From Candidatus Fibrimonadaceae bacterium (lineage in GTDB: Bacteria; Fibrobacterota; Fibrobacteria; Fibrobacterales; Fibrobacteraceae), in contig JAITFP010000053.1 of NCBI GenBank assembly GCA_031281275.1, forward strand, positions 1 to 45,789: a stretch of 45,789 nt of DNA, written 5' to 3'. Shown here one piece after another: positions 1-27,132 of this stretch. The position numbers and the translations under genes were made by a program. The notes under the pieces are model-generated. The model saw only the letters and a program-made list of their open reading frames with translations. It ran no database searches and was not told where the DNA came from. Every line of letters starts with the position of its first letter. Positions within the stretch are counted from its first letter, which is position 1.

Positions 1-872
1 CTCAATTTTGTCTGTATTTTTGAAATGATTTCCTGTGCGGATTTTTCTTTGTAGGGAACAACAATTCGCCCATTCACCGTGAAAGACAAGCCAAGCGATG
101 AAAGTTCATTTGTCAAAGCAGTTCTATCGTCTGCGTCCATAATCAATTCGTGTTTCAGCAAATTACGCTTCAATTCCATAGGCGAGCAGCAAGCCGAAAT
201 TTTGCCTTTGTTGATTAGGCACACTGTATCAACATTTTCAGCTTCGTCAATATAATGCGTTGTCAAGAAAATGGTTGTCCCGTATTTGTCGCGAGTTTCG
301 TTAATGTATTCCCACAGAGTGCGGCGGCTCACAGCATCAAGCCCTTGCGTAGGTTCGTCTAAAAACAACACCTTAGGCGTATGTATAAGGCTGCGGATAA
401 TTTCCAATTTGCGTTGCATTCCACCAGAAAGTTTCTTTATAGGTTTGAAAAGCGCATCTTGTATGCCCACAATTTCTGCAAGCTCCATAACCCTATTGCG
501 ATATGCGGCTGGCATAAATTTGAAAGCTGGTCGGTATCCATACATTCCGTAAAGACAAGCGTGAAAGCGAATATTCTGCTCCGCAGTTAATTGCGGGTCA
601 AGACTTGGCTGTTGAAAAATTATTCCCACTTTCTCTCGCACCTTCCGTGCCTCTTTTTCTATATCAAATCCGGCAATTTTAACTTCACCAGAAGTTTTAG
701 ACAATGTGGTTGTAAGGATTGAAATAGTCGTAGTTTTTCCCGCCCCATTTTCACCCAAAAAGGCAAAGAATTCCCCTTCACCCACCGAAAAGCTGATATC
801 ATCCACCGCAGGTTTATCTGCACCTTTATACCGTTTTGTCAGGTTTTGTACTGTAATGACTGAGTTGTTCAT
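1..872 (-). CDS. ABC exporter ATP-binding protein, partial (3' end off the window)
   Basis: Cytoplasmic ATPase subunit of an ABC export system; 290 codons are present and the C-terminus lies beyond the left edge. All nucleotide-binding motifs are intact: Walker A GENGAGKTT (residues 40-48), Q-loop FQQ (86-88), signature LSGGM (148-152), Walker B LFLDEP (169-174) and the H-loop histidine in TTHY (about 206). The sequence LDAVSRR after Walker B and the stretch after TTHY resemble the DrrA/CcmA-type drug or polymer exporter ATPases, so a permease gene is expected next, outside the window. The ATG is preceded by AGAGGA about 8 nt upstream, which fixes the start. The substrate cannot be told from this sequence. 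Confidence 0.93.
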   Translation of the reverse strand, partial: MNNSVITVQNLTKRYKGADKPAVDDISFSVGEGEFFAFLGENGAGKTTTISILTTTLSKTSGEVKIAGFDIEKEARKVREKVGIIFQQPSLDPQLTAEQNIRFHACLYGMYGYRPAFKFMPAAYRNRVMELAEIVGIQDALFKPIKKLSGGMQRKLEIIRSLIHTPKVLFLDEPTQGLDAVSRRTLWEYINETRDKYGTTIFLTTHYIDEAENVDTVCLINKGKISACCSPMELKRNLLKHELIMDADDRTALTNELSSLGLSFTVNGRIVVPYKEKSAQEIISKIQTKL

Positions 873-877
873 TTTAT

Positions 878-924
878 TTTCCTCTATAGTATAAGACGAA
901 TAAGATAGGAAAATATTTTATTTT
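878..924. repeat. imperfect direct repeat, copy A
   Basis: 47 nt with about 80% ungapped identity to 1414-1460; both copies share the 12-mer TATAAGACGAAT. Copy A is the leader of the ABC gene. Together the copies bracket the truncated lipoprotein gene at 964. Both are AT-rich, so part of the similarity may be compositional. Confidence 0.45.
888..893 (-). promoter_or_regulatory. candidate -10 box (TATACT) of the ABC gene
   Basis: TATACT on the minus strand lies 15 nt upstream of the ATG at 872, leaving room for the AGAGG ribosome-binding site. No clear -35 element is visible. Confidence 0.4.
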
Positions 925-963: not shown

Positions 964-1392
964 GTGAAAACTTCTATTATAACGCTCGTTTGCATATTTA
1001 CTGTGGCAGTCGCATTTTTGTCTTGCGACTTTGGTACAAATAACTCAAATATGCAAAGCAATTCTTCAAGTTCTTTTGAACCGCAATGCGATGGAACAGA
1101 TTTGTCCTTATATGGATATGGTAACCCGTGTGGCTGTGTACTTCCGACAATATTTATTAAGACTGAACAATGCGGCGACGAATATATACTTATTGGTGAA
1201 TATGAAAGATGTGAAAATGGTGTTGTTGAAAGAAGATGTGGAGATGAATGGTATAACACAAAAACGCAATTTTGTTATGAATATAATGTTTTTGATAAAT
1301 GTGATGGAGAAATATATTACCCACCAGATCAAATATGCGAAAATAATGTTATACACATACCTAACGTGCCGCCTCAACCCACCTCACCGTAG
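964..1392 (+). CDS. Short Cys-repeat lipoprotein (FISUMP-less paralogue, probably truncated)
   Basis: 142-residue predicted lipoprotein: lipobox FLSC (Cys about 21), a short Ser-rich linker, then Cys-rich repeats of the form CGDxxY...QFC...CDG...QICENN. The same repeats precede the FISUMP domain in the proteins at 14302 and 16069, but here no FISUMP domain follows. The reading frame runs into sequence that, on the other strand, is a copy of the 3' end of the M23 gene (1372-1416), so the last residues PPQPTSP and the stop look accidental. The GTG start is supported by AGAGG 7 nt upstream. Likely a gene fragment that may still make an outer-membrane lipoprotein; role unknown. Confidence 0.65.
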   Translation: MKTSIITLVCIFTVAVAFLSCDFGTNNSNMQSNSSSSFEPQCDGTDLSLYGYGNPCGCVLPTIFIKTEQCGDEYILIGEYERCENGVVERRCGDEWYNTKTQFCYEYNVFDKCDGEIYYPPDQICENNVIHIPNVPPQPTSP

Positions 1393-1417
1393 AACTTGTT
1401 GAATCGCTTATGCTTTC
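1372..1417 (-). pseudogene. Displaced copy of the M23 gene 3' end
   Basis: Ungapped alignment of 1372-1416 with 1760-1804 (the last codons of the live M23 gene) gives 34 of 45 identical bases. In frame it reads ESISDSTSSTVRWVEAAR followed by TAG (1361-1363), against KSINDSTEATVKWVKE and TGA in the live gene. Conservative replacements (K/R, N/S) show it is a homologous coding tail. The 99-residue gene 1459-1758 lies between the two tails. Confidence 0.7.
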
Positions 1418-1460
1418 CTCTACAATATAAGACGAATTAGGTGGAGAAATATTTTAATTT
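1414..1460. repeat. imperfect direct repeat, copy B
   Basis: Partner of 878-924. It lies between the displaced M23 tail and the 3' end of the small membrane-protein gene, i.e. at a recombination junction. Confidence 0.45.
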
Positions 1461-1758
1461 ATTTCTGCGCTTTATCTAAAAAGTGCGAGCAACTTTTGCA
1501 ACTATTAAGTTTCTTTTGTTTATGGCAGCAAAATCCAACATACTGGGGTTTAGTATATATATCATTTCGCATAAAATGAAAACATTCATTGCAGGTAAGT
1601 TTGTTTTTCTCCATTCGTTTTTTTATTAATTCCATAATTTCAACTATCAATACACATACACCCCCTGTGATTATAGCGGCTAGAAACATTTTGCGTGCTA
1701 TGAAAATGGTAGCTGTTACTGCTCCTGCAAATAATATTTTTTCGTAAATTTTTCTCAT
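1459..1758 (-). CDS. Small membrane protein with Cys-rich cytoplasmic tail (hypothetical)
   Basis: 99 residues: two adjacent hydrophobic segments (about 8-24 and 26-46), then a basic linker and a C-terminal domain with three CxxC-like pairs (TCNEC, FCCH, SCKSC) that could bind zinc. I do not recognise the family. The ATG overlaps the stop of the M23 gene (ATGA), so translation is probably coupled to it. It sits exactly between the live and displaced copies of the M23 3' end, which makes it the likely cargo of an insertion. Confidence 0.6.
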   Translation of the reverse strand: MRKIYEKILFAGAVTATIFIARKMFLAAIITGGVCVLIVEIMELIKKRMEKNKLTCNECFHFMRNDIYTKPQYVGFCCHKQKKLNSCKSCSHFLDKAQK

Positions 1759-3089
1759 TCCTTAACCCATTTCACAGTTGCTTCTGTTGAATCATTTATG
1801 CTTTTAGGTTCGGCAATTTCGGTTTTTGAGAGTATTATTTTTATGCTTTTTACCTGCTCTTTCAAGGCTTCAAATTTTGCTCCTTCAAGTTTTGGCGTAG
1901 CTATCATTTTTTTCAGTGCCGGATTCATCCAAGAGCCATTTGGCTGTTTTATGGCAAAATGCAAATGAGGTCCGTTGCTCCTGCCTGTGTTGCCAACCTT
2001 GCCTATAATTTGCCTGCCTTTAACTCGTTGCCCAGCACCCACGCCTCTCTGCGATAAATGCAAATACCAGCTCTGGCTGTTATCGGAATGTTTAATAGCT
2101 ATGTGATTCCCATTATCTTCACCATAAGAAGATTGCACAACAATTCCATCTGCCACTGCATAAACAGGGGTTCCAACCGTGCCTCTGTAATCTATTCCGC
2201 TGTGGAACATCCTTGAACCTAAGGTGGGGTGAATACGATAACCAAAGCCGCTTGTTATGTGCAGCCTGTCTAACGGATACCTTAAACCCGAATGCACAAG
2301 AGCCTCGCCGTCTTCGGTATAATGGGCGTTAAAGGAGCTTTTTGGGTCTGCTTCTTCATATAAAAAAGCCTCGCTGCGCTTTACTCTTGAGCCATCATAG
2401 CCAGCATACAAAACCTTTCCGCCTATCCATATAGAGTCTTGAAAACGAGTTTCCTTTAACAGAATTTTGAACCTATCCCCTACCCTTGCATCTGTTCTAA
2501 AACTCACTTTGCACTCCAAAACCCCAGCCACAATTCCAACCATGTTTTGAGGAATGCCTATATCCCTTAAAGTATTGTATAAATTGCCGCCCTCCTTTAA
2601 AATACCCTCATACATAGCATAGCGCACATTCAGCGGCTTTTCAACTATCTTATATTTCCATTCTTCCGTTACGATATCTTTCACTAAAAAATGAAGCGTT
2701 GCAAGGTTTTCCGCATATCTGAACATAACGGCTTTTGTGGTGTCTATTTGGTCAAAGCCTACCCAAAAAACCTGCCCTGCCTTTAAAGAGCCAAGTTCCA
2801 CGGTATCTGCAAGGGTATTTATGATTTTCAAGGTTTGCTTTAATTCCAAACCAACTTTTTGTAAAGTTTGAAAAAGCCCAAAATTAGGCTCAACCATAGC
2901 AGGCTTTAAAATTGGCTGATTTGCTATAAAATTTTCAAGAGAATCTATTCGGCTTTTAATTTCTGCGAACCGAGCCTCAGGGTCAGGGTCTGCCTTTTTT
3001 TCTTCGATTTCTTTTTTGCAAGAAAACGTCTGAACCCCGAGTCCCCCGATTATTAGGATAAACAGGATTTTTTTTAAACCACTAGCCAC
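1755..3089 (-). CDS. M23 (LytM-type) peptidase lipoprotein
   Basis: 444-residue predicted lipoprotein (lipobox TFSC, Cys about 24), followed by an acidic/coiled stretch, a central domain and a C-terminal M23 metallopeptidase domain. Zinc ligands are visible as HxxxD in FHSGIDY (about 295) and HLHF (about 374), the set expected of an active glycyl-glycyl/cross-bridge endopeptidase of peptidoglycan. The start is a GTG inside a 7-bp tandem repeat (3079-3106); other GTGs in the repeat are out of frame. It follows the SH3-like gene by 22 nt, so both are probably one transcript acting in the periplasm on the wall. The 3' end is duplicated at 1372-1417. Confidence 0.9.
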   Translation of the reverse strand: MASGLKKILFILIIGGLGVQTFSCKKEIEEKKADPDPEARFAEIKSRIDSLENFIANQPILKPAMVEPNFGLFQTLQKVGLELKQTLKIINTLADTVELGSLKAGQVFWVGFDQIDTTKAVMFRYAENLATLHFLVKDIVTEEWKYKIVEKPLNVRYAMYEGILKEGGNLYNTLRDIGIPQNMVGIVAGVLECKVSFRTDARVGDRFKILLKETRFQDSIWIGGKVLYAGYDGSRVKRSEAFLYEEADPKSSFNAHYTEDGEALVHSGLRYPLDRLHITSGFGYRIHPTLGSRMFHSGIDYRGTVGTPVYAVADGIVVQSSYGEDNGNHIAIKHSDNSQSWYLHLSQRGVGAGQRVKGRQIIGKVGNTGRSNGPHLHFAIKQPNGSWMNPALKKMIATPKLEGAKFEALKEQVKSIKIILSKTEIAEPKSINDSTEATVKWVKE

Positions 3090-3629: not shown

Positions 3630-4472
3630 ATGGAACTCTCAGATAGGCTTTTTATTCTGTTTTATAACACTCTTAAAGCGTGTTTTGAGCAAATTTTATG
3701 GCTTTGGGGGGTATTTTTCCTCATTGGCTTTGCTCTATACTTTATTTCCAACCTTAGGGACAAAGCTTTTGCCGAATCTGTTGGTCATAAAGTTGAATTA
3801 TATTTAACAGGCTGGATTGGAATACCCGTGCACGAAATGGGTCATGCGGTTTTTTGCGTTATTTTTAGGCACAAAATAACGGATGCAAAGTTTTTTTCAC
3901 CAAAAGAAGACGGAACTATGGGCTACGTAAAGCATGAATTCAACCCAAGAAGCACTTATCAAAAAATCGGTAATTTTTTTATAGGCATAGCTCCTATGCT
4001 CTTTGGCACAGTGGTTATTTACGCCTTGCTTGGGATTTTGCTCCCTGATTATTTGCCCGAAGAATTAACCGGCAGCATAGCAGAAACGGGCTGGGAAATT
4101 TTCAGTAATTTTTTCAGTTTCAGCAATTTTAGCGATTTGCGTTTTTGGATATTTATCTATCTCTCGCTCGGAATAGCCAGCCACATGAAATTGAGCATTC
4201 AGGATTTTAAGGGGGCAACCAGCGGCTTTGTAACTTTGCTTGCCTTAATTTTCCTAATAAATTTAATTGCCAATGCGTTTTTGGATTTTGGGTTAAAAAG
4301 CATATCTGTTTCGTATTGGTTCACAACCAAAATAAACGTGTTGCTTTCCCTGTTTTATTCAATAATGCTTTACGCCCTTGTGCTATCGGTTCTTTATTTG
4401 CTGTTCTCTTACTCGGTGCGTGGGGTTTCAAGGGTTGTGAGGTCTAAGGGCAAAAATCTATTGGCAAAATAG
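3630..4472 (+). CDS. M50-like membrane metalloprotease (HExxH)
   Basis: 280-residue inner-membrane protein with about six hydrophobic segments. HEMGH (about residues 69-73) in the second segment is the zinc-binding HExxH of site-2-protease-like M50 enzymes, preceded by GWIGIPV. The second-ligand motif (LDG/NPxxDG) is not obvious, so it could be a divergent or inactive member. The C-terminus overlaps the convergent PIN gene by 29 nt. Its last seven residues GKNLLAK differ from the end KVRR encoded by a second copy of the 3' end at 5189-5252, so the present tail seems to have been supplied by the inserted toxin-antitoxin unit. Confidence 0.75.
   Translation: MELSDRLFILFYNTLKACFEQILWLWGVFFLIGFALYFISNLRDKAFAESVGHKVELYLTGWIGIPVHEMGHAVFCVIFRHKITDAKFFSPKEDGTMGYVKHEFNPRSTYQKIGNFFIGIAPMLFGTVVIYALLGILLPDYLPEELTGSIAETGWEIFSNFFSFSNFSDLRFWIFIYLSLGIASHMKLSIQDFKGATSGFVTLLALIFLINLIANAFLDFGLKSISVSYWFTTKINVLLSLFYSIMLYALVLSVLYLLFSYSVRGVSRVVRSKGKNLLAK
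4397..4449 (+). repeat. 53-bp direct repeat, proximal copy (live 3' end of the M50 gene)
   Basis: 49 of 53 bases identical to 5189-5241, no gaps. Homology stops 3 bp after the PIN stop codon is entered on the opposite strand. Confidence 0.9.
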
Positions 4473-4854
4473 CTTTGATTTCGGAATTCAAAAAATCTGA
4501 TGTATTTCTGGTCACAATAAAATCCACGCCTTTGTTTTTTGCACATTCTACTTGCAGGCAATCTTCAAAATCTACAAAAGATTCGTTATTTATGGAATTA
4601 AATATATGTTCTTTGTTTATGCCTGCAACCTCTAAAATATTGCAAATTTCATAAAGTAAATGCCGCCTTTCTTCAATTGAACAATGTTTTCTCAAAATAT
4701 AAAATATGTTATTTACGGAATGAGCCGAAATATAGCCATCAACATCTTCTAGGCATCTTTGAATGACAGCATAAGACTCCTTAAAGAAAGGCTCCCTGTT
4801 TGTCAAAAAATCAAGTATAATATCAGTGTCTATTAGAATTTTCATATTTTTCAT
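4444..4854 (-). CDS. PIN-domain ribonuclease toxin
   Basis: 136 residues (133 if the second ATG, 4845, is used). The PIN fold is recognised by the N-terminal MKILIDTDIILDFL with acidic residues, a central acidic pair in DFEDCLQVECA and the C-terminal TRNTSDF, giving the metal-binding acidic set. Such toxins cut RNA when their antitoxin is lost. The 5' end overlaps the RelB/DinJ-like gene by 32 nt, the usual arrangement of a coupled toxin-antitoxin operon. The gene is convergent with, and overlaps, the M50 gene. Target RNA unknown. Confidence 0.85.
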   Translation of the reverse strand: MKNMKILIDTDIILDFLTNREPFFKESYAVIQRCLEDVDGYISAHSVNNIFYILRKHCSIEERRHLLYEICNILEVAGINKEHIFNSINNESFVDFEDCLQVECAKNKGVDFIVTRNTSDFLNSEIKAILPIDFCP

Positions 4855-5140
4855 ATTTCTCGTTCCTAATTACTTCCAATTCTTTTTTGTAGTCAAAATC
4901 TGCTGGCAAAATTTTCTTATACTTCTGCAATCTTTGAAAAGCCAATTTTGCTTCTGCCTTTTTATCTGTTTGAGGAATGCCAACACGAATATTAAATGGA
5001 ATTCCACCAAAAACAATTGCCTGCTTAAAAAACATACGTATCGCCGAAGCCGTATCTATGCCAATTTCGCGAAATAATTTTTCAGCCTGTTCTTTAAGCG
5101 AAGGCTCTATGCGAACTTGAAGTAAACTAGTTTGTGCCAT
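4823..5140 (-). CDS. RelB/DinJ-family antitoxin
   Basis: 105 residues. The N-terminal half (LLQVRIEPSLKEQAEKLF ... ASAIRMFFKQAI ... GGIPF) is the ribbon-helix-helix DNA-binding region of RelB/DinJ antitoxins; the charged C-terminal half would wrap the toxin. It precedes and overlaps the PIN toxin gene, so it likely neutralises PIN and represses its own promoter at 5166. Pairing a RelB/DinJ-type antitoxin with a PIN toxin rather than RelE/YafQ is a mix-and-match arrangement. Confidence 0.85.
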   Translation of the reverse strand: MAQTSLLQVRIEPSLKEQAEKLFREIGIDTASAIRMFFKQAIVFGGIPFNIRVGIPQTDKKAEAKLAFQRLQKYKKILPADFDYKKELEVIRNEKYEKYENSNRH

Positions 5141-5188: not shown

Positions 5189-5252
5189 TTTGCTGTTCTC
5201 TTACGCGGTACGTGGGATTGCAAGGGTTGTGAGGTCTAAGGTGAGGCGTTGA
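5189..5252 (+). pseudogene. Displaced 3' end of the M50 gene
   Basis: Reads in frame LLFSYAVRGIARVVRSKVRR then TGA (5250-5252), against LLFSYSVRGVSRVVRSKGKNLLAK in the live gene at 4398. It has its own stop but no start or promoter, as expected for the original gene end pushed 792 bp downstream by insertion of the toxin-antitoxin unit. Confidence 0.85.
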
Positions 5253-5532
5253 GCTTGTGATTGAGGCTTCTCCCAATTTTTAGGTTTTAACAGAACAATA
5301 AAAAACGCCCATCTGTAAAACCTTTACCAAGTGTCTGTTATACTTATTTGCATTAGGGTGACTGGAATGTAGATTCCATGCCTTTTCACGATTGCAATGC
5401 AGAATGTTTAATTTCGCAATTCAAAGGCGAAACTTCTTGCAACGTTTATTTTATATCAATTTTTGTGTAGTGCCAAACTGTGTTTTCCATTTCTTTTCTC
5501 CTTGGGCAAAGCCCATCTTGTTTTCCCTAATC
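5253..5532. other. Gene-free stretch
   Basis: 280 bases with no convincing reading frame. It contains only small inverted repeats: TGGAAT-4-ATTCCA near 5370, and TGGGC-3-GCCCA at 5507-5519 just after the FISUMP stop. Neither has a T-tract. No RNA family recognised. Confidence 0.5.
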
Positions 5533-6534
5533 TTAATCTTGCAAGCAACGGACACTATACAAGTAGTCCTTACCGTATCCGAGGTAGCCCACGCCCTCGT
5601 AGTCGTAGTCCATGAGCCGGTAGTAAGCGCGGTTGCTACCGTCCTCGCTAGCGCTAGCACTCCACCAGTAGCCGTAGTTACCGACATTGCTGAAACTACC
5701 ATCGGAATTGCCGGCGCCGCCCGGCAGGGCGGAAAAGCCATACGTGTCCTCGCCATTGCCAGATTTTCCATTGGGATCAGCCCATCCGCTCGTTGCCTTT
5801 AATTTTTTTCCCGCACCTTCACAATTGCTATTGTCAGGGCAGATAGGATTGACGAATTTCATCAAAACATTCCAATCCGCATTGCTTGGCAAATGCCAAC
5901 CGCTAGGACAAACAGTATTTGCTGTTGCCCAAGTGTAAAGCCTGCCGTAAATCGCACAATTGGATTCTTTGTTATCATAACATTTGCTGCCACTTACATT
6001 GTAGTCAAGGTTTTCCGCCATCCATACCTGCTCACCTATTTTAATAGTTCTATAATTCGCTATATCGTTGCCTTTGCTGGTTACCGCAGTAGAGTTTGAA
6101 CTTGATACAACAGAGCTACTGCTTGGCGTTGCACTGGAACTGCTGCTTGGCTTTGAACTTGACGAAGATACTGCCACAGAACTAGAACTAAGAGCGAAAG
6201 AAGAACTGCTTGATACTGTTACGCTTGACGAAGAAACAACCGCCGAGCTAGAACTTGGCACAGCAACGGAGGAACTACTAAGCGGTGCATTAGAACTGCT
6301 GCTCTGCTTAGAGCTTGACGAAGACAATGCCGCTACCACCGAAGAACTAGAACTTGGCACCGCTACGGAGGAACTGCTGCTCTGCCTTGTGCTTGACAAA
6401 GGCACTTTATCAGAACTAGAACTGGATTTCCCGATATAGTTGGGGCTTTCCGGATCATCGGGATTGTTGAACTTCATTTCCGAGCAAGACGCAAAAAGAA
6501 ACACTGCTGCGAATAGAAAAAATCTTAAAACCAT
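5533..6534 (-). CDS. FISUMP-domain lipoprotein with long poly-Ser linker
   Basis: 333 residues: lipobox FASC (Cys about 17), the Fibrobacter-type motif FNNPDDPESPNY, about 110 residues of Ser-rich linker (runs of 4-5 Ser separated by short hydrophobic/Pro spacers), then a C-terminal FISUMP domain of about 175 residues (IKIGEQVWMAENLDY ... GWHLP ... ALPGG ... YWWSAS ... YSVRCLQD). Exposed on the cell surface by the linker; the function of FISUMP domains is not established. Its ATG overlaps the end of the upstream TolB/CsgG-like gene by 10 nt, so the two are translated together. Confidence 0.9.
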   Translation of the reverse strand: MVLRFFLFAAVFLFASCSEMKFNNPDDPESPNYIGKSSSSSDKVPLSSTRQSSSSSVAVPSSSSSVVAALSSSSSKQSSSSNAPLSSSSVAVPSSSSAVVSSSSVTVSSSSSFALSSSSVAVSSSSSKPSSSSSATPSSSSVVSSSNSTAVTSKGNDIANYRTIKIGEQVWMAENLDYNVSGSKCYDNKESNCAIYGRLYTWATANTVCPSGWHLPSNADWNVLMKFVNPICPDNSNCEGAGKKLKATSGWADPNGKSGNGEDTYGFSALPGGAGNSDGSFSNVGNYGYWWSASASEDGSNRAYYRLMDYDYEGVGYLGYGKDYLYSVRCLQD

Positions 6535-7365: not shown

Positions 7366-8157
7366 CTAAATAAATTCCAACTCCGGCTGCATTCCGCAAA
7401 GCTCGTAAAATATTTTCAATGATTTTTCGTGCTGGCTGGTGAAGCTGTAATCTATCGCATTGTAGTAGTCGCAAGCTAGATTTTGCGGCAAGTTGTGAGG
7501 ATAATATTTTTCCCATTTTTGCAAACATTCTTTTCTGTTTTCTTTGAAATCTTTTATGCTCATTTCCGTTTCATTTAAATAATTTTCTAGCAAGGGTCGC
7601 AAGCCTCCACCCAAGGCTTCTTTTCTTATTATCCATAGCGCAAAAACAAAAGGCAAATTTTGCCATTCTTGCCAAATGGAAGCCAAATCGTAGGAATATT
7701 CCCATTTGCCTGCAACGCTTTCCCGCAAAGCGTTATCGCCTATCAACAGCTTGGCATCGCAGCTCTCGGCATTATCTGTCCAAATTGGCTTGACCTTGAA
7801 GTAGAGGCTTGAGAGCAATTTTAGCAAGCTAACCGAAGTGTCGCTTTGTTCGGTTGTGAAAACGGCTTTATCGCTCAAATTTTCCCATTTATGCTTTGAA
7901 AATAGCTTCACGGAACGTATTTCAAGGGTGCTTGATGTGCAAAATCGGTTGCAAATAACGTAATTTTTTTGATTTTTGGCGTATTCTATGGAAGAAGAGG
8001 GGGAAAGCATTATTTTGCCCTCCCTTAGGTTTTTGTTTTGCTCGCTTGGGGTTCCATCTAAAAAACGAATTTTTGGCGGAAAATTATCCAAAAAATGGTG
8101 AAAAAAGGGGGCACAAACCAAAAAAGGAATGCGTCCTACTGTTAAAATATGTTCCAT
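7366..8157 (-). CDS. mqnA: Chorismate dehydratase MqnA (futalosine menaquinone pathway)
   Basis: 263 residues of the MqnA/MqnD periplasmic-binding-protein-like fold: N-terminal GRIPFLVCAPFF, SPSSSIEYA (SSIEYA is typical), LLIGDNAL, then YDLASIWQEW and PFVFALW. MqnA removes water from chorismate to give 3-[(1-carboxyvinyl)oxy]benzoate, the first step of the futalosine route to menaquinone. LIGDNAL and FVFALW favour MqnA over MqnD. Length is typical. No other mqn gene is nearby. It implies a menaquinone-dependent anaerobic electron transport chain. Confidence 0.88.
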   Translation of the reverse strand: MEHILTVGRIPFLVCAPFFHHFLDNFPPKIRFLDGTPSEQNKNLREGKIMLSPSSSIEYAKNQKNYVICNRFCTSSTLEIRSVKLFSKHKWENLSDKAVFTTEQSDTSVSLLKLLSSLYFKVKPIWTDNAESCDAKLLIGDNALRESVAGKWEYSYDLASIWQEWQNLPFVFALWIIRKEALGGGLRPLLENYLNETEMSIKDFKENRKECLQKWEKYYPHNLPQNLACDYYNAIDYSFTSQHEKSLKIFYELCGMQPELEFI

Positions 8158-23682: not shown

Positions 23683-23760
23683 AAAAAAATGCACATTTTT
23701 GCAAACTCCTATTTGCAAAATTCACTTTTTAGGATTTTTTTTCCCAAAAAGTACGTCTAA
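23683..23760 (+). repeat. 78-bp direct repeat, copy 1 (leader of the Rpn gene)
   Basis: 77 of 78 bases identical to 24637-24714 (period 954 bp). It contains two copies of the palindrome TTTGCAAA 14 bp apart, and an inverted repeat ACTTTTT...AAAAAGT. It ends 31 nt before the Rpn ATG. Confidence 0.92.
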
Positions 23761-23791
23761 TAGGTAGAAACTAAAAGAAGGAGAAGTTTCT

Positions 23792-24580
23792 ATGAAAGAC
23801 AACTTACCTGAGCTATTATCCCCAAAAGTGGACATTATATTCAAATTGCTGTTCGGCGATGAGCGGAACAAAGATTTGACAATCAGCTTCATAAGCGCAG
23901 TCTTAGGCTACAAGGACGGCGAATTGGAAGACATTTCCTTTTACGATACTCACCTGAAACGGGAGCATATAGACGGCAAGCTGGAGATTTTGGATATAAA
24001 AGCCAAACTCTCAAATGGAAATGTTATAGACGTGGAGATGCAGTCACGCTGCGTTCCCAGCATCAGGAAGCGAATATCTTATTATAAATCAAATATGCTC
24101 ACCGAGCAAATAGGCAGAGGTGGCTCGTACTCTGGACTAAAACCTGTAAAATCTATAATAGTGGCGGATTTTGATTTTATCCCTGAATCAGAGAAATGCC
24201 ATACTGTTTTTCAAATGCTGGAAAAGGAAGAACACTTCCCTTTTAACGATTTGGAGGAGATACACGTTCTTTGCTTGAAAAAATTATCTAAATTAGATAA
24301 TGAGTGCTTGCATGAATGGTTGAGGTTTATTAATTCTGAAAGCAAAGAGGAATTTATGGAGTTAGCAGAAAAGAGTCCAGTGTTTGAAAAGGCTGTAGAT
24401 GTTTTGGCTACGGTGAGTGCTGACGACTATAACCGTATGCTTTACGAGGCTCGCTTGAAGGAGTGGCGTGATAATAAAGATAGGATAGACGGAGCCTTTA
24501 CAGATGGCATGAAGAAAGTTTTCTCTCTTTTGCGTCAAGGCTATTCCGTGGACGAAGCTGAAAGAAAGTTGGGGTTGTAG
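23792..24580 (+). CDS. Rpn-family (PD-(D/E)XK) nuclease / putative transposase
   Basis: 262 residues of the PDDEXK transposase-like Rpn family: start LLSPKVDIIFKLLFGDE, the catalytic core LDIKAKLSNGNVIDVEMQ with D68, E82 and Q84, then RISYYKSNML and the C-terminal GxxEGxxxGxxK-like helix region (DGAFTDGMKKVFSLL). Rpn proteins are DNA endonucleases that promote RecA-independent recombination in E. coli, and relatives act in phage defence. AAGGAG precedes the ATG. The gene lies inside a 954-bp unit bounded by 78-bp direct repeats, which suggests recent acquisition or duplication. Confidence 0.88.
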   Translation: MKDNLPELLSPKVDIIFKLLFGDERNKDLTISFISAVLGYKDGELEDISFYDTHLKREHIDGKLEILDIKAKLSNGNVIDVEMQSRCVPSIRKRISYYKSNMLTEQIGRGGSYSGLKPVKSIIVADFDFIPESEKCHTVFQMLEKEEHFPFNDLEEIHVLCLKKLSKLDNECLHEWLRFINSESKEEFMELAEKSPVFEKAVDVLATVSADDYNRMLYEARLKEWRDNKDRIDGAFTDGMKKVFSLLRQGYSVDEAERKLGL

Positions 24581-24636: not shown

Positions 24637-24714
24637 AAAAAAATGCACATTTTTGCAAACTCCTGTTTGCAAAATTCACTTTTTAGGATTTTTTTTCCCA
24701 AAAAGTACGTCTAA
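24637..24714 (+). repeat. 78-bp direct repeat, copy 2 (leader of the 24748 gene)
   Basis: Differs from copy 1 only at 24665 (G for A). It ends 33 nt before the ATG at 24748; weaker similarity (GTAGAA ... AGGAG) continues to the start codon in both copies. Confidence 0.92.
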
Positions 24715-24747
24715 GTAAGTAGAACAAAGAAATAGGAGATTTTTTTT

Positions 24748-27132
24748 ATGAAAACCTTAAATTCAAAGGCTATATGCCTGATCTTAGCTTTTGCCACCCA
24801 GGTATTTGCACAGCGTTTCACCACAACTGAGCCGGAGGTATTTCGAACGCCCAGCAAAACAGAAAATTATCCGCAATATAAGCAAATAGCCGCTTTGGGA
24901 GAGAAAAATTCGGCTTATGCAAATATAATGCTGGTTGGTGGTAGGGATAATGAAAAAGTTGGTACATACAATGTGGTTAAAAGCGATAGCTCTGTGCTTG
25001 GAACTGTGCTTCCATTTATTGCGCCAAATGTTTTCACTTCAAATAATGATACTATCCACGACAATAGTGTAGCCGCAGTAGCCGTTTTGGATTCGTTTAG
25101 CGATAACAAAAAAACGGCAACCGTGATTTTTGCAAGCCTTAGGAAATTGGTTATAATGCAAATAAGCATAAGCAATACAAATAGCATAAGTTCTAGTATT
25201 TTGAGCAATACCAATATGCCAGAATCCATGTGGGAAATAAACGGAACATATGACATAAATAAAAAGCATACTCGAAGGCTTGCCCTTTTGGGAACAAGCC
25301 TAAACGGCGCAAACAAGGTTTATCATTTGGCAACGGGAAATCCACTCAGCAAAAATGGAAAGGGCAGAGTTGATTTTTTTAATATAGAGGAAAATTCTTG
25401 GGCACTTTTGCAACCGAACCAAAACGGACTAACAAGCGGAACAAATGGGCTTGTTTTCAATGATAGCGTTTATTTTGGAAAAGAATTGGCTGTGATTGAT
25501 AATTTTGATAAGAAAGGCGGAAAAGCACTTGTTGTTTTGCTGCCCGACTCCAAGCAATTTCCAAAAAGTGCGCTTTATCTATTTCAAATGGATAATGACT
25601 GGACCCCTAGCACAAAATTGCCGGTGGTGATAGCAGGACTGTCAAAACCTTGGTTTGAAGAACCCGATAAAGAGCAAAGTTGCGGTGGGCTTGGGATAGC
25701 AAATTGGGAAGATGAAACGCCTCATCTGCTCGTTTCCTGTGTTAATATATCTCCACTTGCCGCAAATGGTGGAACCGTTTCATATATCCTTACAATAAAA
25801 GATATTGTTCTGGATTCAACTGGAAATATTTTAAATAACTCCGTATTTTCTTCAAAAAAAATAAGTATGTCATATAGCTCTCCTGGGAATTATAGCATTT
25901 ATTCCAATCCCATTTCAATAAAAAATCATAAAAACGATTTGCATTCTATTTCCTTAATTGCAGCATCTCATATAAATAGCGACCATTACTATTCAATGGC
26001 AACTTTCACGGTAATAGATGCAGACTATTCCAAAAATTTTACAGTAGAAGCTGGCATTCAAGAAGCTATAATCAATATAGATAGCCTTTTTTACAAAAGC
26101 GGAACATCGGGTTTTTCTGCAAAAACGCTTTTTGGGCTTGCGCAATGCTCCATTAACAACAGCAACAAAGAACTTTTGTGCCTTGGCAACGAAAAATCCA
26201 TAGGCTCTTGGAGCGGAATAGAGCTTTCCAGCAGCGGCAACTGCAATTTGTATAAAGCCTGCAAGAAAAAAGATACCATTTTTGTTTATGTGCGTTCCGC
26301 AAGCGAATCTTCAAATACCGCGCTTAGAATTCCCAAAAACATATTGATTCCATATTATGGGCAAGTGAATTTGGGCGATGTAAAACCACTTTCCTATTTT
26401 AAAAATCCAAATTTGCAGAACACAAATATAAGCTGGAACACTGCGAGTTTAAAATTGAGCGTTTTGGCAAACACTCCCGAAAACGGAATTGCAATAACCC
26501 CCTTTTCCAAAAACGAAGGCATAGATACTCTTGTATTTGACCTTTCTTTTCCTCTTTCAGTATCCAAATACCCCATATACCTTCACATTGCAGATACCTC
26601 CAAAATTCTAGGTAGTGCAATACCAGCAAACCCAGGCAACGATACTATATGGAACACAGTCGAAAAAAAATACATTGCCCTGCCGCACCGAAGCTCTAAA
26701 GGCGATATTTACACTTATGATATTGCCCAAGACAGCCTTGGAGCATACTCTGAAATAATAGGCGATTATTTGCATATATCAAGAGTTGACATAATGGATA
26801 TTTCCATTGCATACACGGAAAACGGGCAGATAAAGCACCGCAAAATAACCTTGATGCCAGAACCTAAAGAATTGCCTAACAAAATCGCTAAATCGCAAGC
26901 ATTAAGCCTAAATGCCGCATATATAAAAGGCGGATTGCAAATCAACGGTTTAAACGGAGATTTTGAGCTTAGGGCATATAATATCAAAGGCAGAGAAATT
27001 CAAAGGGAAAAAGCCTATGCCAAAGGCTCTGTTTTTGTGAAACTAAGGCAAAATTGCCCACAAATTGTGCAAATCCGTTCCAACAACGAAAAGATTTCTA
27101 TATTTACTCCCCAGCAACAGCCGGAGTGGTGA
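24748..27132 (+). CDS. Large secreted protein with C-terminal sorting-like domain
   Basis: 794 residues: signal peptide ending near VFAQ (about 22), then a long beta-rich extracellular region with FG-GAP/propeller-like repeats (for example IANWEDETPHLLVSC) but no recognised catalytic motif. The last 70 residues (ELRAYNIKGREI ... GSVFVKLRQNCPQIVQI ... KISIFT) resemble the type IX secretion C-terminal domain found on Fibrobacter and Bacteroidetes exoproteins (xYxxxGRxI then a final short strand). The frame stops inside the tRNA-Leu gene, giving a tail QQQPEW. Leader shared with the Rpn gene. Confidence 0.75.
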   Translation: MKTLNSKAICLILAFATQVFAQRFTTTEPEVFRTPSKTENYPQYKQIAALGEKNSAYANIMLVGGRDNEKVGTYNVVKSDSSVLGTVLPFIAPNVFTSNNDTIHDNSVAAVAVLDSFSDNKKTATVIFASLRKLVIMQISISNTNSISSSILSNTNMPESMWEINGTYDINKKHTRRLALLGTSLNGANKVYHLATGNPLSKNGKGRVDFFNIEENSWALLQPNQNGLTSGTNGLVFNDSVYFGKELAVIDNFDKKGGKALVVLLPDSKQFPKSALYLFQMDNDWTPSTKLPVVIAGLSKPWFEEPDKEQSCGGLGIANWEDETPHLLVSCVNISPLAANGGTVSYILTIKDIVLDSTGNILNNSVFSSKKISMSYSSPGNYSIYSNPISIKNHKNDLHSISLIAASHINSDHYYSMATFTVIDADYSKNFTVEAGIQEAIINIDSLFYKSGTSGFSAKTLFGLAQCSINNSNKELLCLGNEKSIGSWSGIELSSSGNCNLYKACKKKDTIFVYVRSASESSNTALRIPKNILIPYYGQVNLGDVKPLSYFKNPNLQNTNISWNTASLKLSVLANTPENGIAITPFSKNEGIDTLVFDLSFPLSVSKYPIYLHIADTSKILGSAIPANPGNDTIWNTVEKKYIALPHRSSKGDIYTYDIAQDSLGAYSEIIGDYLHISRVDIMDISIAYTENGQIKHRKITLMPEPKELPNKIAKSQALSLNAAYIKGGLQINGLNGDFELRAYNIKGREIQREKAYAKGSVFVKLRQNCPQIVQIRSNNEKISIFTPQQQPEW
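27099..27104 (+). promoter_or_regulatory. -10-like TTTC-TATATT for tRNA-Leu, inside the upstream coding sequence
   Basis: TTTCTATATT lies 15 nt before the tRNA 5' end and encodes part of KISIFT of the preceding protein. tRNA-Ser has the same motif 13 nt before its 5' end. Confidence 0.55.

Follow-up and report, generated by a model that had tools for sequence, protein, structure and literature searches.

When an e14-type prophage enters icd, the gene receives an alternative end from the element and the original one is shifted to the element's far side, a reaction that requires the phage integrase. Insertion with long target duplication was reportedly described by Nobusato et al. in 2000. It has been documented for restriction-modification genes of Helicobacter pylori (PMC1643837, PMC3031569, PMC3154945). 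Homology-facilitated illegitimate recombination is known from experiments with transformable bacteria, and has a low efficiency in E. coli conjugation (PMC3240628; discussed in PMC2884548). In the T6SS effector/immunity arrays of Vibrio cholerae, modules are added successively at the 3' region of one gene and the old 3' end is pushed downstream; its authors suggest something similar to homology-facilitated illegitimate recombination as the mechanism (PMC5361080).

The locus described here lies in a window of 45,789 nucleotides from a Candidatus Fibrimonadaceae bacterium, contig 1 of a genome of 124 contigs and 2.7 Mb that is 79% complete (G000). As in insertion with long target duplication, the insert is a small gene or gene pair without its own transposase, a long and variable direct repeat of target sequence lies on either side of it, and comparison with relatives reveals it. 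The known cargo of that process is mainly restriction-modification genes, whereas here it comprises PIN toxin-antitoxins, lipoproteins and orphans; the repeats here lie at gene 3' ends, and at the M23 locus a second repeat, the promoter P, is doubled as well. As in homology-facilitated illegitimate recombination, one homologous anchor, for which the ABC gene is plausible, and one illegitimate end with a short overlap would fuse two versions of an interval additively, but that process is known from experiment, and what is seen here is an outcome in sequence. The Vibrio arrays likewise have a gene 3' end displaced downstream by an added module; there the displaced end is that of an effector and orphan immunity genes are kept, whereas here the targets are mostly housekeeping genes and some 30-60 bp are displaced. 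The alternative gene end and displaced original recall e14 in icd, although no phage integrase is present here. The process is already known in kind from other bacteria. It is distinct from the known kinds in its cargo, its mostly housekeeping targets, the interleaved promoter repeat at the M23 locus and its 3'-end bias, the last being new together with the repeat length of 28-61 bp.

The entry of tiny recombinase-free cassettes, such as toxin-antitoxins and orphan genes, into genomes is poorly understood. In the scanned part of this genome a visible entry scar occurs at about 1 in 100 genes, strongly biased to 3' ends, and housekeeping genes such as rbfA and nuoD are included among the targets. 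Such scars form a countable, datable record that can be used to separate target-duplication insertion from fusion of interval versions, and a scan for tail duplications is a simple finder of recently acquired genes in unannotated genomes.

Two direct repeats behind the M23 gene

Table 1. Features at the M23 and M50 gene ends, in window coordinates.
Feature	Position	Strand	Basis or remark
M23 peptidase gene (target)	1755..3089	-	Pfam PF01551, E 1.2e-29; live stop TGA 1755-1757
T1, live M23 tail, proximal copy, shortened by c99	1760..1804	-	repeat; relatives' M23 ends
c99, 99-residue gene	1459..1758	-	hydrophobic N-terminus, Cys-rich C-terminus; ATG overlaps M23 stop (ATGA)
P1, copy of the ABC operon's putative ECF-sigma-type promoter, in the c99/T2 interval	1414..1460	-	83% to 878-924
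P1/T2 overlap AAA, candidate 3-bp microhomology at the P1-T2 junction	1414..1416	-	bases common to both repeats
T2, displaced M23 tail	1365..1416	-	family-type ending ...TVRWVEAAR, own TAG 1365-1367; repeat; relatives' M23 ends
Small Cys-rich lipoprotein-like gene, convergent	964..1392	+	last codons and stop within T2 antisense
P2, putative ECF-sigma-type promoter before the ABC gene	878..924	-	repeat partner of P1
ABC exporter ATPase gene, runs off contig	1..872	-	Pfam ABC_tran, E 2e-33
Live M50 tail copy	4397..4449	+	92% to 5189-5241 over 53 bp
Toxin-antitoxin cargo	4444..5140	-	PIN 4444-4854 (Pfam PIN_3, 1.7e-18); RelB-like 4823-5140 (Pfam RelB, 1.2e-6)
Distal M50 tail copy	5189..5241	+	continues into family-type end RSKVRR* (G006 RSKVGK*)

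The order on the minus strand is M23-T1-c99-P1-T2-(lipoprotein gene, antisense)-P2-ABC (Table 1), and the M23 gene has orthologues in 11/11 genus relatives. The first-pass annotation had described a doubled M23 tail, and this holds: T1 (1760-1804) and T2 (1372-1416) agree at 34 of 45 bases, ungapped and in the same strand and frame, forming a long direct repeat of the target (76% over 45 bp) that flanks the insert. The minus-strand codons read ...AGC ATA AAT GAT TCA ACA GAA GCA ACT GTG AAA TGG GTT AAG GAA TGA in T1 and AGC ATA AGC GAT TCA ACA AGT TCT ACG GTG AGG TGG GTT GAG GCG GCA CGT TAG in T2, which by this codon check ends in its own TAG (1365-1367) in the frame of T1. The c99 start codon (1756-1758) sits on the live M23 stop (1755-1757), one base short of the T1/T2 repeat, so the limit of the repeat does lie near the cargo start.

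T2 encodes SISDSTSSTVRWVEAAR*, a family-type M23 ending, including the EA that is absent from the live tail. M23 proteins of relatives end in ...DS(L/V)QATVKWVEAL*, ...VEALD*, ...VEAD* and similar sequences; the live tail ends in ...STEATVKWVKE* (...STDAIVKWVIE* in the sister species G006), terminating where c99 begins, and T2, set against the relatives' ends, runs two codons further than T1. Positions 1369-1392 match the M23 end of G011 at 23 of 24 bases, and 1370-1392 match that of G002 at 91%. Across 48 aligned bases T2 is nearest to G011 (35/48) when T1 is set aside, and T1 is nearest to G006 (42/48). It had been allowed that the similarity might be lost once related M23 genes were aligned; the outcome was the opposite, and the relatives' M23 ends strengthen the homology. 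By these alignments T2 is a genuine M23 end, and the ancestral-type gene end is kept by the distal T2, not by the live copy T1. The residues DST are common to T1 and T2 and, among the other relatives, are seen in G006 only, which points to an origin of both copies in the same or a near lineage. A degraded ABC-gene start had also been considered for T2, as an ABC-type promoter and ribosome-binding site precede it; the match to relatives' M23 ends, including the two codons beyond T1, rules this out.

A second direct repeat, missed in the first-pass annotation, joins 878-924 to 1414-1460 (83% over 47 bp). That annotation also passed over the stop codon of the convergent lipoprotein-like gene, which falls within T2. 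P1 abuts T2 with a 3-bp overlap (1414-1416), a junction of illegitimate type that is weak evidence alone, since chance can give three bases. The insert by itself does not account for all of the duplicated sequence at the locus: what abuts T2 is P1/P2, the promoter of the neighbouring operon. In G011, where the orthologue of the window's ABC gene (90%) belongs to a 119aa-ABC-permease operon adjoining an ECF sigma gene, P stands before both the operon and the sigma gene; in G006 it precedes a 111-aa gene adjoining a partial sigma-like gene at a contig end, a related gene pair. Five copies of P have 29 invariant columns, including TAAAATATTT and TCGTCT (TAAAATATTT...TCGTCT). From its position and shape we infer that P is an ECF-sigma promoter. 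Read along the minus strand, P1 (1414-1460) keeps a GAGGA similar to a ribosome-binding site. It faces T2 and, beyond that, the antisense strand of the lipoprotein gene, from which an active sigma factor may produce antisense transcripts. The lipoprotein-like gene itself (964-1392) resembles part of a Cys-rich repeat family present in every genus genome.

The c99 cassette measures 343 bp and holds a single orphan gene, with neither a recombinase nor a transposase by ORFs and Pfam. Homologues of c99 were found only in G006 (78%, likewise behind M23) and G011 (60%, elsewhere), and at the DNA level G006 and the window agree at 83% in c99 and 90% in M23. Membership of c99 in a known family was rejected, there being no Pfam match above cut-off, no NCBIfam or PADLOC family and no relatives among viral contigs.

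The M23 layout parallels that of the M50 gene and its toxin-antitoxin pair elsewhere in the window, a direct gene-tail repeat enclosing a small cargo at both, as had been pointed out in the first reading of this DNA. The accompanying view that the M23 event is the older one fits: T1 and T2 share 76% and c99 is common to G006, whereas the M50 repeats share 92% and the toxin-antitoxin pair is absent from the G006 locus. These comparisons agree either with an older M23 event or with a T2 that came from another lineage. Behind M50 in G006 (L046 8150-8500) lies a different small gene pair, the second ORF of which resembles, from its look, the start of a PIN toxin. The M50 3' end therefore seems to be a repeated landing site for toxin-antitoxin pairs in two species.

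Tail duplications at other gene ends

Each gene tail (last 75 nt + 25 nt) was matched against the 4 kb that follow it, each gene head against the 4 kb that precede it, and mid-gene segments in both directions, paralogues being discarded. The scan covered ~0.96 Mb of G000, 0.76 Mb of G006 and 0.4 Mb of outgroups, and its counts are those of a simple ORF caller, hand curation and partial genomes from one genus. Of the 11 raw cases in G000, curation struck out a reciprocal pair, the start of a neighbouring paralogue and L107, leaving non-dispersed tail duplications at 8 of 822 genes; the sister species had 3 among 643. Head duplications numbered 1 in 1,396 and mid-gene segments repeated downstream 1 in 1,469, and none of 325 tails was duplicated in the outgroup sample (400 kb). 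An excess of tail duplications, on which the first-pass annotation had staked its claim of recurrence, is thus present in these hand-curated counts from partial genomes, with a Fisher p of 0.006 for tails against heads and 0.02 when the two window cases, which had prompted the scan, are left out. The same contrast was much weaker in an earlier, less filtered scan, in which paralogues and dispersed repeats raised the counts of tails and heads alike.

The duplicated tails in G000 are those of M23 (45 bp, 76%), M50 (53 bp, 92%), NuoD (49 bp, 92%), a TonB receptor (56 bp, 84%), a TPR-like gene with a PIN toxin-antitoxin-like pair (41 bp, 98%), a DnaA-like gene (61 bp, 90%), a glycosyltransferase (36 bp, 97%) and an outer-membrane-type protein (58 bp, 76%). 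Those in G006 belong to RbfA, with an RHH-PIN pair (28 bp, 100%), to ThyA (31 bp, 90%) and to a membrane gene with repeated tail copies. Repeat lengths run from 28 to 61 bp (78 with gaps), and the cargos are PIN toxin-antitoxins, lipoproteins and orphans. In most of the genomic cases other than M23 only the gene tail is repeated. A single-copy tail without the cargo in question was found in the relative for NuoD and the TonB receptor (in G006) and for RbfA (in G000). At the TonB receptor locus ~480 bp of extra sequence also lies behind the distal copy, so this locus had more than one event. At L184 4620-7865 in G006 the tail of a membrane-protein gene has three successive copies, separated by different genes, and recurs at an adjacent paralogue; this reads as repeated accretion at one gene end.

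Ten cassettes were compared for shared ends. The best start-start and end-end scores for a common motif were 11 and 13 against a shuffled maximum of 13, in an end-sequence comparison rather than an attC model, and terminal inverted repeats scored 4-9, within background. Ends of the mobile-element type were not found on these ten cassettes.

Origin of the interleaved repeats

The region behind M23 differs in most relatives, and with the downstream sequence so variable no clean empty M23 site was found among them. In G006, M23-T1-c99 is followed by TTAAAATATTT, to which the 61 C-terminal residues of the ABC permease (87% to G011) are joined directly. This arrangement supports the existence of a c99-P-ABC-permease version, in which G006 would have undergone a deletion; a deletion in the window arrangement, with T2 present beforehand, would explain it equally well. 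Neither a pure lipoprotein version (M23-T-lipoprotein-P-ABC) nor an undeleted c99 version is present among the 12 genus genomes, and none of these represents a donor for a fusion. Downstream of M23 in G006, the ABC permease tail with its terminator-like end is doubled ~2.3 kb apart around three genes (L046 2625-2720 and 4939-5139), a further tail duplication close to the M23 locus.

The order T-X-P-T-Y-P, in which interleaved repeats meet at one junction with a 3-bp overlap, is most simply read as one fusion of two versions. We propose, giving the idea about an even chance, that a single illegitimate junction between P1 and T2 (3-bp overlap) joined two versions of the M23-to-ABC interval, carrying c99 and the lipoprotein gene respectively, and that this explains both repeats. 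The interval between M23 and the ABC exporter operon would be a variable site, holding different small genes in different lineages. The resident version would have comprised the M23 tail, c99, promoter P and the ABC operon, and DNA presumably taken up from a lineage with the other version would have brought an M23 tail, the lipoprotein gene, promoter P and the ABC gene, if the direction is read correctly. Pairing would probably have relied on homology in a flank common to both, with the ABC gene as the likely anchor, and the other end would have been joined illegitimately, leaving the versions side by side as T1-c99-P1 and T2-lipoprotein-P2. T2 and P1 would then be duplicated scars of the one junction, probably without a function in their own right. 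The tail duplications at about ten other gene ends are most likely scars as well, left where DNA with a different small gene was attached to the 3' end of a gene common to both; additive joining of this kind, assisted by homology, would account for them.

The fusion model is favoured by the family-type end of T2, by the identity of P as an operon promoter, by the support from G006 for a c99-P-ABC-permease version, by the variable region behind M23, by the recurrence at other gene ends and by the lack of an end motif or terminal inverted repeat in the ten cassettes. Against it stand the tight repeat lengths elsewhere, where random illegitimate ends should spread wider, the absence of either parental version from the 12 genus genomes and the slight weight of three overlapping bases. 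Because G006 is possibly a deletion of the window arrangement, our confidence in the mechanism goes no higher, and insertion with target duplication is its main rival.

In that rival account the M23 3' end received an insertion of c99, P1 belonging to the cargo, and ~45 bp of target were copied on both sides. A long repeat does flank a small gene with a family-type end in the distal copy, the same architecture is seen at M50 and other gene ends (with the single-copy tails of NuoD, the TonB receptor and RbfA in a relative), and the similar repeat lengths fit a staggered-cut process. P1, however, needs a separate explanation, as it copies the promoter of the next operon and not M23, and no relative offers a clean empty M23 site; we consider the account possible but doubtful. 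The first-pass annotation had taken this line, with c99 inserted and the tail copied. It was right that T2 is a real second M23 tail but left the adjoining P1/P2 duplication unexplained. Its wider suggestion of a recurrent cassette route into gene 3' ends stands as regards recurrence and 3'-end bias, whereas insertion with copying, as it was put, does not cover P1/P2.

Tandem duplication of a T-X-P unit (~400-500 bp) by unequal exchange, with X then replaced in one copy, predicts the observed T-X-P-T-Y-P order and its abrupt P-T junction. It is nonetheless unlikely: c99 and the lipoprotein gene, which lack similarity, are encoded on opposite strands and call for a second, full replacement, T2 bears no trace of the c99 overlap, and most other genomic cases lack anything beyond the gene-tail repeat. 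We also think it improbable that the lineage has a dedicated, transposase-free process that puts small AT-rich cassettes at gene 3' ends, copying ~30-60 bp of the end each time and leaving the host gene intact; if true, toxin-antitoxins and orphan genes would have a transposase-free way into operons.

Integrases classically target gene 3' ends, and a recombinase that did so and re-formed the gene end, in the way of islands in icd, rlmH and tRNA genes, would agree with a gene that stays functional through tail copies. Such site-specific integration is very unlikely here, given that no recombinase gene was found in any cassette examined (ORFs and Pfam), that every target differs in sequence and that no motif is common to the cassette ends. 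Chance or convergent tail sequence, for which one may cite a T1/T2 identity of just 34 in 45 bases, can be practically dismissed, as the M23 tail scores 23 in its own downstream region against a best of 19 (0 at >=20) in 5,991 random 4-kb stretches of its genome, and T2 agrees with M23 ends of other species past the region shared with T1.

Other repeats and elements in these genomes

Contig 109 of the same genome (L112 5436-8498) carries a reverse-transcriptase-like ORF, and at 7392-7480 an Asn-rich sequence repeats, in the manner of a template, the end of a gene close by (5436-6359), with substitutions mostly at A positions of the template; the region looks like a diversity-generating retroelement. 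DnaA-like proteins lie beside small lipoprotein genes in both species (L109 10781-13557, L046 1282-2427). The L109 protein combines AAA with a DnaA C-terminal helix-turn-helix, and in G006 a repeat around AATTCCAACTAAAAATTCGCAGTTTTAGCCATTTTT is found at gene borders in this DnaA-like/lipoprotein setting. Together the DnaA-like and lipoprotein genes are possibly a mobile lipoprotein-cassette system.

A dispersed REP-like element, TCGGGAAAATC...GGGGTTCTGACAAT, occupies intergenic positions of the G000 genome in both orientations (L126 10938-10990, L094 5125-5467, L117 1325-1365 and others). Within the window, 23683-23797 and 24637-24753 form a 117-bp direct repeat (89%) of the upstream-region type, which flanks the gene at 23792-24580, and a similar sequence occurs in L141.
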